Assembly (NCBI GenBank): GCA_009773665.1
Contig: WSYE01000004.1
Location: 52,456-116,455, forward strand
Source of the DNA: Desulfovibrionaceae bacterium
GTDB taxonomy: Bacteria > Desulfobacterota > Desulfovibrionia > Desulfovibrionales > Desulfovibrionaceae
Direction: 5' to 3'
DNA: 64,000 nt
The translations under genes were made by a program, and so were the position numbers. Below the pieces are notes generated by a model that made no database searches, had not been told where the DNA came from, and saw only the letters and a program-made list of their open reading frames with translations. Shown here piece by piece: positions 36,183 through 39,836 of the stretch (its first letter is position 1; each line of letters starts with the position of its first letter).

Positions 36183-36812
36183 TTGGGAGAGGTGGTCATA
36201 GTGGGAATTGGAGCTTTCAGGACAACGGCGGACATCGTGCTGGCCTCAGGCTCGCCCAGGAGAAAAGAGCTGCTTGGGTCCACGGGCGTGGAGTTCAGGA
36301 TCGTGGTCTCCGGCGTGGACGAACCCGCTGCCGATGCCGGGGAAACGCCCGGTGGCTACGCCCTGCGCATGGCGCGCATGAAGACCTTGGACGTGGCCGC
36401 GTCCTGCGCCGGAGCGTATGTTTTGGGCGCGGACACCGTGGTTGCCGTGGGGGACTTCATCCTCGGCAAGCCTGTGGATGTGGACGATGCGAAGCGCATG
36501 CTGTCCATGCTCTCCGGACGTGAGCACACTGTGGTCACGGCCTGTTGTCTGGTCGGTCCGGAGGGAGAGGCAATATGGGAAGAGGCCCTGGCCTCGAAAG
36601 TTACTTTCGCCACACTGACCGAAGAAGCCATTGCCGCCTACGTGGCCACGGGCGAGCCCATGGACAAGGCTGGCGGCTACGCCATCCAGGGCCTGGGAGC
36701 GTTCATGATCGCCCGCGTGGAGGGGTCGTACACGAATGTTGTCGGGTTGCCCCTGGCTGAAGTGGTGGATGTCCTGAAGCGCAACGGGGGTATCGTTCCT
36801 AGAGAACGCTGA
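36183..36812 (+). CDS. maf: Maf family nucleotide pyrophosphatase (C-terminus apparently replaced by the adjacent insertion)
   Basis: 'IVLASGSPRRKELLGSTGVEF', 'YVLGADTVVAVGDFILGKPVD', 'GYAIQGLGAFMIARVEGSYTNVVGLPLAEV'. Confidence 0.93.
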   Translation: MGEVVIVGIGAFRTTADIVLASGSPRRKELLGSTGVEFRIVVSGVDEPAADAGETPGGYALRMARMKTLDVAASCAGAYVLGADTVVAVGDFILGKPVDVDDAKRMLSMLSGREHTVVTACCLVGPEGEAIWEEALASKVTFATLTEEAIAAYVATGEPMDKAGGYAIQGLGAFMIARVEGSYTNVVGLPLAEVVDVLKRNGGIVPRER

Positions 36813-38808
36813 ACAATCCCCACGCGGAGCAACGGGGTCAAGACGTGTCGAGGAATTATTTTCATACCGAGCTTTACAAGAAATACGAGAGAAGATAAAA
36901 GTAATTCGAAATAACTAATAAATATCGAGAAATACAAATGGCACGCATCAAGACGATTGAAATTCACAACATAAAAGGCATCAAACAATTAAAGCTAGAT
37001 TTGGATCTAATTCCTAACAAGCCAAGCCTATTTGTCGCCTCCAATGGATTTGGAAAGACATCGTTTGCAACTGCATTTAATTCTTTGAATAGAAACAGAA
37101 TTAATCTCAACGAAAATGACCTCCACGAACAACTCGAAACCAACAAACCACTGATATCCATTGAATATTCCGAAGACAACCGAGCAGTAACGATATACAA
37201 CGCAACAGAAAGTTCAAACGGAATATACAGCGAGTTTGATGTCCAGGTCATCAGAAACACGCTGGAATCCAAACATACCAAAAAAAACATGGGCGGTTTC
37301 ACCCATGTCAGTTCACATATCTGCATTCCTCCGATTACCCTCATTGACAGAATCCCAAAAAAACAAACACCTAGATACTCATGCCTAGCCGTTAGGCAAT
37401 CATTCGGGAAAAATGGAAAAATCCTTCCAAACATATCCGGGGAGATAAACAACCCCAACATTATTTTTCAAATCGGTTCACAAGTTGATATGGGGAAATT
37501 ATTACAAGTAAGATCAACCAGAGCCATTGAAAAATTCAAGGAAGAAGCAAATAAATTAAGTGGCAGCACGGCTGACATGACAAGAACCTTGAACGGCAGT
37601 CATATCAGCCTACTGAGTGACATCGAACCATTGACAAAAATTGTCGAAATTTTAAAAAACAATGGCATAAACCGCACCATTGAAATCGAACACTACCTGT
37701 CCGCATTACAATTCTTCGAATCGTTTAAGATAGAGCCACGCGAATTCAAGACCTATGTCGAATACTGCAACCATGTAATTCATGAACAACACCTGAAGAC
37801 TTTTTTCAACGCACTTAATCCCACCTGGAAGAACATTAGACCTACAAAAGAGAAAGACAAACTCATTCTCCACTTTCCAGAAGCCACACACATATCGAAC
37901 GGCGAACGGGATATACTGTGTTTTATCGCAAAACTATTAATTGCCAAAAATAAACTAAACAAAAGTAAGTGCATCCTAATAATTGACGAGATATTTGACT
38001 ACTTAGACGATGCGAACTTAATTTCCGCACAATACTACTTATCGAGAATGATTCAAGAATACAAAGAAGACGGCCGACAACTTTATCCAATCATATTGAC
38101 ACACTTAAACCCTCTTTATTTCAAAAGCTACCGCTTTAAAGATCAGAAAGTTTATTACCTTGAAAGAAAACCAATTTCATTTGACAAGAAAGTGTTCAAT
38201 GTCATCTTAAAAAGAGAGGAAGAAAGAATAAGAGACGCCATTGGAACATTTTATCTTCACCACCACTCAAGCGACATAAACTTGACCGCTGAATTTGCAG
38301 CACTTGGTCTTGACCCTAGCCTTTCTACAGCAAATTCATTCAAACGCTACATTTCTAACCAACTCACTGAGTACTTGAATGGAAATAGATATGATCCCGC
38401 ATCTGTTTGTTGCGCATTAAGGATTAGCATTGAAGAAATTGTTTTCAATGCCTTGGATTCTGCTCATTACGCAGACTTCCTTGACACACATGGCACAACC
38501 CCAAAATTAGAATTTGCCGAATCCAAAGGAATCAACATACCTGAAACGTTCCACCTTCTCGGAGTTATATATAACGAAGCAATGCATTTTCGTTATCCAA
38601 ACCAAGACTACGCCACACCCTTATTTTCAAAATTAGACAACTCAACCATCCGGCACATGATCAATGAAGCGTGCTCGTGTATATTGTAAGTCTTCTACAA
38701 CTCGAAGCATAACATCCAATACTTCCTATCAATTTATTGGACTGGCTCACACAAGCTCACATCAGCTGAAGTCATGGAAATCCTGAAGCGCAACGGGGTT
38801 ATCGTTCC
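36756..38808 (+). mobile_element. ~2.0-kb AT-rich insertion bounded by 44-bp imperfect direct repeats of the maf 3' end
   Basis: Repeats 36756..36799 and 38765..38808 are 39/44 identical by hand alignment, with an 18-nt perfect block tcctgaagcgcaacgggg; interior has visibly lower GC than both flanks. Confidence 0.75.
36938..38689 (+). CDS. SMC/ABC-type AAA ATPase with unassigned C-terminal domain (candidate single-gene defence protein)
   Basis: Walker A 'FVASNGFGKTSFATAF', signature 'HISNGERDILCFIAK', Walker B 'CILIIDEIFDYLDDANL', H-loop 'PIILTHLNPLYF'; ~130-aa C-terminal helical region. Confidence 0.85.
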   Translation: MARIKTIEIHNIKGIKQLKLDLDLIPNKPSLFVASNGFGKTSFATAFNSLNRNRINLNENDLHEQLETNKPLISIEYSEDNRAVTIYNATESSNGIYSEFDVQVIRNTLESKHTKKNMGGFTHVSSHICIPPITLIDRIPKKQTPRYSCLAVRQSFGKNGKILPNISGEINNPNIIFQIGSQVDMGKLLQVRSTRAIEKFKEEANKLSGSTADMTRTLNGSHISLLSDIEPLTKIVEILKNNGINRTIEIEHYLSALQFFESFKIEPREFKTYVEYCNHVIHEQHLKTFFNALNPTWKNIRPTKEKDKLILHFPEATHISNGERDILCFIAKLLIAKNKLNKSKCILIIDEIFDYLDDANLISAQYYLSRMIQEYKEDGRQLYPIILTHLNPLYFKSYRFKDQKVYYLERKPISFDKKVFNVILKREEERIRDAIGTFYLHHHSSDINLTAEFAALGLDPSLSTANSFKRYISNQLTEYLNGNRYDPASVCCALRISIEEIVFNALDSAHYADFLDTHGTTPKLEFAESKGINIPETFHLLGVIYNEAMHFRYPNQDYATPLFSKLDNSTIRHMINEACSCIL

Positions 38809-38821
38809 GGTAACCGTCTAG
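38765..38821 (+). pseudogene. Orphaned second copy of the maf 3' end
   Basis: gctgaagtcatggaaatcctgaagcgcaacggggttatcgttccggtaaccgtctag reads AEVMEILKRNGVIVPVTV*, parallel to the maf terminus AEVVDVLKRNGGIVPRER*. Confidence 0.8.
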
Positions 38822-38855
38822 ACTGGCACGGCATTGCCCGCTTGACGGTATCCTG

Positions 38856-39836
38856 TTGATGCATGATGCTCGCGGAGTGCGAAATTCCCCGGACGGAGGG
38901 TGGAACGTGGAAGAAGCTGGAACGGACAAAAAGGTCGACGTCCTCATCAACGTCTGCGGCAAGCCCTACCAGACCGCCCTGGCGCTTCTCACCCTGGAGC
39001 GCGCAAGCGGCCACCGCATCGACCGCATATATTTCGTCGAAGAGAACACCCAGCACCACAACGTGGACATCCACACCGGCCACCACGGCTTCGTCCTGGA
39101 CAGGCTGAAAGACAAGATCGTCTACCTGCGCCCCGAGACCTGGAACTACTGCTTCTCCATCGAACTGGACCGCCTGGGTGACGAGCAGTACCGCCACTCC
39201 GTGCGCTACCAGTACGGTTGGGAGAACTCCGACAAGGACCACGTCCTCATTATCCACAACGACGCGCACTTTCACGGCGACGTTGTCGGCGCAATGCTGG
39301 ACAACATCGACGGCCATATCGCCATCGGGCACGTGGGGCAGTGCTGGTACTGCCCGGCGTCGTTCACCGGCAAATGCGGGCCGGACAGCTACCTGGAGTA
39401 CAAGCCGTCGTTTCGGGAGCTGCGCGACCTCTACACCAAGACGCACGCGCCCGAGGGTTCGCTCATGCGGGCCTACCACCTGCCGCGCATGCACCCCATG
39501 TTCGAGAAGCAGCCCTGGCCGCTGCCCGAGTGCCGGGTGAACGAGTGGTGCGCGCTCATCGACATGAAGAAGGCCCGGGGCATCACCGCGCCGCACGGAC
39601 GCGTCACGCCCTTCGGGGCGATCCTGTCCGTTGGCAAGCAGATACTCGACGTGGGATGCCAGTGGTTCCGTGACGTGCACGTGCGCGGCCACACCTGCAA
39701 GAACTTCGACATCTACAAATACATGCACCACGACGTCCCGCCCACCGGACAGCCAACGCTTCTTGACAGGGAGCGCTACGAACAAAGGGAGATCGAGGCG
39801 CTGGCGCGGCTCCGGGAGGAGTTCGGCCACCCCTGA
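38856..39836 (+). CDS. Hypothetical protein, possibly glycosyltransferase-like (start uncertain)
   Basis: 'KVDVLINVCGKPYQTALALLTLERASGHRIDRIYFVEENTQHHN', 'DHVLIIHNDAHFHGDVVGAML'. Confidence 0.65.
   Translation: MMHDARGVRNSPDGGWNVEEAGTDKKVDVLINVCGKPYQTALALLTLERASGHRIDRIYFVEENTQHHNVDIHTGHHGFVLDRLKDKIVYLRPETWNYCFSIELDRLGDEQYRHSVRYQYGWENSDKDHVLIIHNDAHFHGDVVGAMLDNIDGHIAIGHVGQCWYCPASFTGKCGPDSYLEYKPSFRELRDLYTKTHAPEGSLMRAYHLPRMHPMFEKQPWPLPECRVNEWCALIDMKKARGITAPHGRVTPFGAILSVGKQILDVGCQWFRDVHVRGHTCKNFDIYKYMHHDVPPTGQPTLLDRERYEQREIEALARLREEFGHP

Follow-up and report, generated by a model that had tools for sequence, protein, structure and literature searches.

How could a 2-kb segment with a single gene be placed at the 3′ end of maf while maf itself was preserved? 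This question is raised by a stretch of 64,000 nucleotides (the window), which is part of contig C25 of an assembly (MAG) with an estimated completeness of 66%. No cognate integrase was found in this genome, and since it is only 66% complete, the absence of a gene from it means little.

Structure of the maf locus and its empty counterpart

The initial annotation had described two copies of the maf 3′ end with an offset of 2009 bp around an AT-rich segment containing one ATPase gene, and these values were reproduced by recomputation. The copies (36756-36799 and 38765-38808) are 44 nt in length, have the same orientation and are identical at 39 positions (89%), including a perfect block of 18 nt (TCCTGAAGCGCAACGGGG). 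The 26-nt pattern common to both copies was matched twice in the window, compared to 0 matches expected from shuffled sequences, and among the surveyed relatives it was found only at the maf gene of genome G003. The GC content changes from 0.64 in maf to 0.385 in the segment and 0.60 beyond it. According to the ORF list and family searches, the ATPase gene is the only sizeable ORF of the segment and integrase and transfer genes are absent, in agreement with the earlier description of a unit without an encoded integrase. A tRNA search of the 64,000-nt window gave no result. The following features were assigned:

36183..36812, + strand: maf gene with element-supplied 3′ terminus (ending in LKRNGGIVPRER and a stop codon); ORF, Pfam Maf E=9.6e-61
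36756..36799, + strand: left repeat copy (attL-like) with crossover block 36772-36789; upstream of the block the sequence matches the empty site of G003, downstream of it this is not the case
36790..36812, + strand: element-borne substitute for the last maf codons and stop; differs from the native GTTCCGGTAACCGTCTAG retained at the right end
36790..38798, + strand: inserted AT-rich element of 2009 bp with one gene and without integrase; repeat offset, GC 0.385, absent in G003
36938..38689, + strand: cargo gene for an ATPase of 583 aa, ABC-type (RecF/SMC/OLD-like) and a candidate defence protein; weak Pfam and PADLOC matches, distant homologs
38765..38808, + strand: right repeat copy (attR-like) with crossover block 38781-38798; downstream of the block the sequence matches the empty site of G003
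38799..38821, + strand: displaced native maf end (VIVPVTV and stop); identical codons end the G003 maf, followed by colinear DNA of 95% identity
38822..39836, + strand: native right flank, which directly adjoins maf in the empty site; blastn of window 38765-39836 against L003 2068-3139, 95%

Among 60 relatives, G003 was the closest at maf (94% amino acid identity). Its single maf terminus (LKRNGVIVPVTV and stop; the end of the gene reads LAEVVDVLKRNGVIVPVTV up to the stop) is directly joined to DNA that is 95% identical to the right flank of the window. This is the empty site that the initial annotation had predicted, with one maf 3′ end of the type found at 38765. Measured against G003, copy 1 is native in its left half and copy 2 in its right half; the other two halves, the right one of copy 1 (GTATCGTTCCTAGAGAACGCTGA) and the left one of copy 2, came with the element. 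Of the positions left of the block at which the window copies differ, three have the base of copy 1 in G003 and one has a base found in neither copy; from the first base after the block on, G003 follows copy 2. Because the diagnostic bases switch in this way, the crossover is located within TCCTGAAGCGCAACGGGG (36772-36789 and 38781-38798), and therefore the last maf codons were replaced by the 2009-bp element. A core at GCTGAAGT, at the left edge of the homology in the window, was set aside, since the bases of G003 speak for the 18-nt block.

The regeneration of the maf terminus by the element, as proposed before, is borne out by the native end of G003, which differs from the window maf end and matches 38799-38821. 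If the ends of the element are joined, they read AEVMEILKRNGGIVPRER followed by a stop, i.e., the complete terminus of a different maf allele. The ATPase gene was absent from all 60 relatives searched, and in a sample of 398 genomes of the phylum it was found nowhere else, except for a single weak and partial match. Ancestral synteny is therefore excluded, and the segment is an insertion.

The maf 3′ end as a recurrent integration site

The surroundings of maf were surveyed in 100 Desulfovibrionaceae genomes, resulting in 101 maf loci including the window. Additional copies of the maf 3′ end were identified downstream in 14 of the 101 loci (E<1e-3; self-comparison and copy profile; window not counted), with one to four copies per positive locus. 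All of them are on the forward strand, and no reverse-strand copy was found in the surveyed loci at E<0.1. Copy 2 of the window reached only E=0.13 in the family profile. As the profile was built in part from the copies of these loci, weight must be given to the self-comparison, which is independent of it, and to a control with upstream segments: with 90-nt queries along maf, the final 90 nt gave 16 forward matches and segments further upstream gave 1-2. The highest number of copies was found in G621 (four), followed by G620 and G635 (three each). In G621 (L074), weaker maf-like copies are located 2.4-10.8 kb past maf, the last near 10.7 kb, which suggests an old, eroding array.

The genes between the copies differ from case to case and comprise ParDE, GFA, SnoaL, GGDEF, Abi_C, GNAT, RelA/SpoT-like and unassigned genes, mostly with a GC content below that of maf. 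Other cargo at the same position had been expected in sister strains; unrelated cargo was indeed found, in other genera of the family. The GFA ORF region of G635 is 88-90% identical to that of G623 and G621, compared to 60% identity of the host maf genes. Identical cargo types occur beside different neighbours in different species, and GFA occurs in different genera. A comparison of GC content between the first and the last maf copy in 12 loci was mixed, with 7 of the 12 in the expected direction, and the contrast was clear only for part of the GC-rich hosts, for example G030 and L059. The only integrase within 16 kb of maf in a search of the loci, for which some queries had been mis-picked, was located 8 kb off in L088. 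The window element has the same layout, with a co-oriented maf 3′-end copy downstream, low-GC cargo and no integrase. Nothing relevant on maf as an integration site was found in the literature searched, and as far as this search extends, the maf 3′ end is a gene-capture site in sulfate reducers without an earlier description.

The ends of these cassettes are conserved. On the left, the maf terminus is followed by AAAATCGTACATTCG and paired TCCCCAC-like repeats. On the right, TCCCACACAAGTCCCCAC is followed by a GTTACA-like motif and CAACGTCGTCGG, at which the similarity to maf begins sharply. Several cassettes retain just the last codons of an integrase at their right end, for example PTQVPTQLRLVG and stop in L059, and this integrase-tail motif was found at 8 of 32 sites compared to 47 of 5,050 control windows (0.9%). 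In the window, the left flank did not match the family left-end profile, the right-end repeat similarity was weak (shuffle p 0.02-0.25) and no integrase remnant could be recognised in the element. The crossover block of the window is located in the LKRNG codons of maf, about 40 nt past the CAACGT core seen in the rest of the family, whose cassettes cross over at the NVVG codons. As judged from these sequences, the window element is common to the maf cassette family in architecture and not in end profile or core. Viral contigs containing AAATCGTACATTCG (109 stretches) were discarded as looking like chance matches, with no convincing match to the end profiles.

A survey with the right-end repeats revealed an array in G008 that is not located at maf, where the repeats are contained in the coding end of an integrase C-terminal fragment, and relatives of this fragment led to the integrase of G030. 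The maf site of G030 holds an element with a full-length tyrosine integrase of 352 aa. It ends in SPTKVPTKLRLVG and stop, and its final codons are the cassette end repeats. This end is encoded by a sequence starting with AGTCCCACCAAAGTTCCCACCAAACTG; about 60 nt further on, contig C62 has a GC-rich maf end and then other chromosomal genes. The displaced native maf end has a GC content of 0.71; on contig C33, the maf gene has an AT-rich substitute terminus (0.46, compared to 0.71 in the gene body), followed by the left-end repeats. C33 and C62 are not joined in the assembly; they presumably represent the two ends of one continuous element. The initial annotation had recommended looking for integrases next to maf elsewhere, which was successful with this element, and together with the copies in the 14 other loci the G030 element supports the proposed role of the maf 3′ end as an attachment site or hotspot.

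In a family-wide scan, strong relatives of the G008 fragment were found only in G008, G030, G460 and G685, and truncated integrases in a like arrangement are present in G460 and G008. Relatives of the G030 integrase on viral contigs are only 25-28% identical. The small integrase-less cassettes were probably founded by the integrase on the larger G030 element. The G008 array (L301 9700-11310, contig C31) is a second array of maf-like sites, located immediately downstream of a phage-tail-protein-D-like gene, and holds a DUF3800 gene besides the integrase fragment. In G685 (L347 9474-9686, minus strand, contig C11), a full-length relative of the G030 integrase (49%) has GTACCAC repeats in its last codons; no maf-like site was found alongside, and this integrase may use the end of another gene. 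A short tyrosine recombinase-like ORF of 185 aa is located upstream of the maf-type integrase in G030 (L345 12331-12888, minus strand, contig C62).

Origin of the inserted element

The window segment 36790-38798 is probably a one-gene unit without integrase, similar to the cis-mobilisable elements known as CIMEs, which entered the maf 3′ end by conservative recombination. The recombination partners would be the maf-3′-end sequence carried by the element and the chromosomal maf 3′ end. From the anatomy of these loci, we infer that a tyrosine integrase acts in trans, binding the end repeats and recombining the maf-derived core of the element with maf. It would most likely be provided by an autonomous element of the G030 kind, for whose integrase CAACGTnGTCGG is the predicted crossover site between the cassette ends and the maf 3′ end. 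Cassettes without integrase could be integrated and excised when a related autonomous element enters, or could be carried along after accretion. Since the element brings a new terminus, maf survives and the native end is pushed 2009 bp downstream. An enzyme of this type acting on the window element, a circular intermediate and present mobility would be part of the same scheme.

An alternative without a site-specific recombinase is homologous recombination by RecA with the maf locus of a related strain that already contained the ATPase gene, using short maf homology. This route agrees with a crossover in a perfect block of 18 nt that is embedded in a longer stretch of imperfect maf homology. 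It also agrees with the left half of copy 2, which came with the element (AEVMEI) and resembles the coding sequence of another maf allele, and with window ends unlike the conserved family ends. Nevertheless, we consider it unlikely, though conceivable for this one locus, since 18 nt is short for RecA and a like architecture recurs at the maf end, with conserved repeat-bearing ends and an integrase in G030. Recurrent architecture and integrase point to an enzyme for the maf cassette family as a whole. The tandem, co-oriented one-gene units, each closing with a repeat of about 80 nt, and typical cassette cargo such as toxin-antitoxin genes resemble integron cassettes, and this layout suggested that maf 3′ ends could serve as attC-like sites for an integron integrase. 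This was dropped as highly improbable, given that TIGR02249 gave no match over the curated cut-off in 14 genomes (the window's MAG being 66% complete) and that the G030 element bears its own integrase. Moreover, paired direct repeats are present at both ends, like integrase arm sites, and the remnant is that of a non-IntI integrase.

The element could also be a decayed remnant, i.e., a larger integrase-bearing element in maf that was deleted down to the ATPase gene and is now immobile. This reading overlaps with the CIME-like unit proposed above, and the sole difference is present mobility. No integrase leftover can be recognised in the window, although C-terminal leftovers persist in the cassettes of relatives and CIMEs have been described as deletion derivatives (PMC7563491). 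The same cargo is found beside different neighbours in different species, which favours units that are still moving, so that we regard an immobile remnant as possible but the weaker reading.

CIMEs have lost their integration and transfer genes and have kept attL and attR (PMC5704250, PMC7563491). They occur in tandem at the 3′ ends of rpsI, rpmG, fda and rplL, the first three for example in Streptococcus salivarius, with sizes of 1.2-13 kb and including gene-less microCIMEs (PMC5704250, PMC7563491). The window element likewise lacks integrase and transfer genes and has two maf-3′ copies as attL/attR-like sites; the maf units agree with the CIME description and also share the restoration of the target 3′ end and tandem accretion (PMC7563491). 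In contrast to these, the maf units mostly consist of one gene each, and some loci contain at least three co-oriented copies. No ICE or IME was attached within the stretch read at the surveyed maf loci with copies, and the C-terminal codons of the integrase serve at the same time as end repeats and are retained in the cassettes. Compared to known CIMEs, the target gene maf, the one-gene arrays and the integrase-tail signature are new. Integrase islands at tRNA and tmRNA 3′ ends (Islander, PMC4383910) also restore the target gene and displace its native end, whereas the target maf is protein-coding, up to about 26 codons are replaced and the unit has no integrase. The pdif/dif modules of Acinetobacter plasmids (PMC13141974, PMC12907356) are similar in their small size of 1-2 genes, toxin-antitoxin content, shuffling and lack of an own recombinase. 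However, dif sites are short XerC/XerD sites, and the maf cassettes have long ends that derive from maf and are linked to a phage-type integrase. Integron cassettes are likewise single-gene units in tandem and in the same orientation with a terminal recombination site, but IntI was not found over the cut-off in the 14 genomes searched, and the sites of the maf cassettes copy the end of a coding gene.

Tentatively, the maf 3′ end of Desulfovibrionaceae could be seen as a cassette platform that is integron-like in layout. A single tyrosine integrase from a rare autonomous element would act in trans, and many single-gene cassettes would be captured, placed in tandem, shuffled and exchanged between genera, with maf remaining functional. 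Each cassette is predicted to close with a maf terminus copy that is flanked by repeats bound by the integrase. At this site it can be tested directly whether a trans-acting integrase moves single genes as units outside the integron system. A maf 3′-end copy downstream of maf is also a simple handle for finding mobile, possibly defence, genes in these genomes.

The ATPase cargo gene

The ATPase (583 aa) has intact motifs, namely NGFGK (Walker A), SNGERD (signature) and ILIIDE (Walker B). Its Pfam match to SMC_N (1.3e-5) is under the cut-off, other RecF/SMC-like matches are also weak, and the PADLOC match to PtuA (1.1e-7) covers only the N-terminal residues 3-121. It could not be assigned to Septu PtuA or Gabija GajA, as there is no full-length family match and no partner gene in the element. 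Searches of phages and viral contigs gave no relatives, PDB sequences gave no match, and a structure prediction was set aside (mean pLDDT 38). A role in defence is plausible. Full-length homologs are distant (30-37% identical) and were found in Mucilaginibacter and on plasmids. One homolog adjoins a DNA cytosine methyltransferase gene, and another, on a Sinorhizobium meliloti plasmid, adjoins a run of TIR-domain genes (L037 6000-12200).
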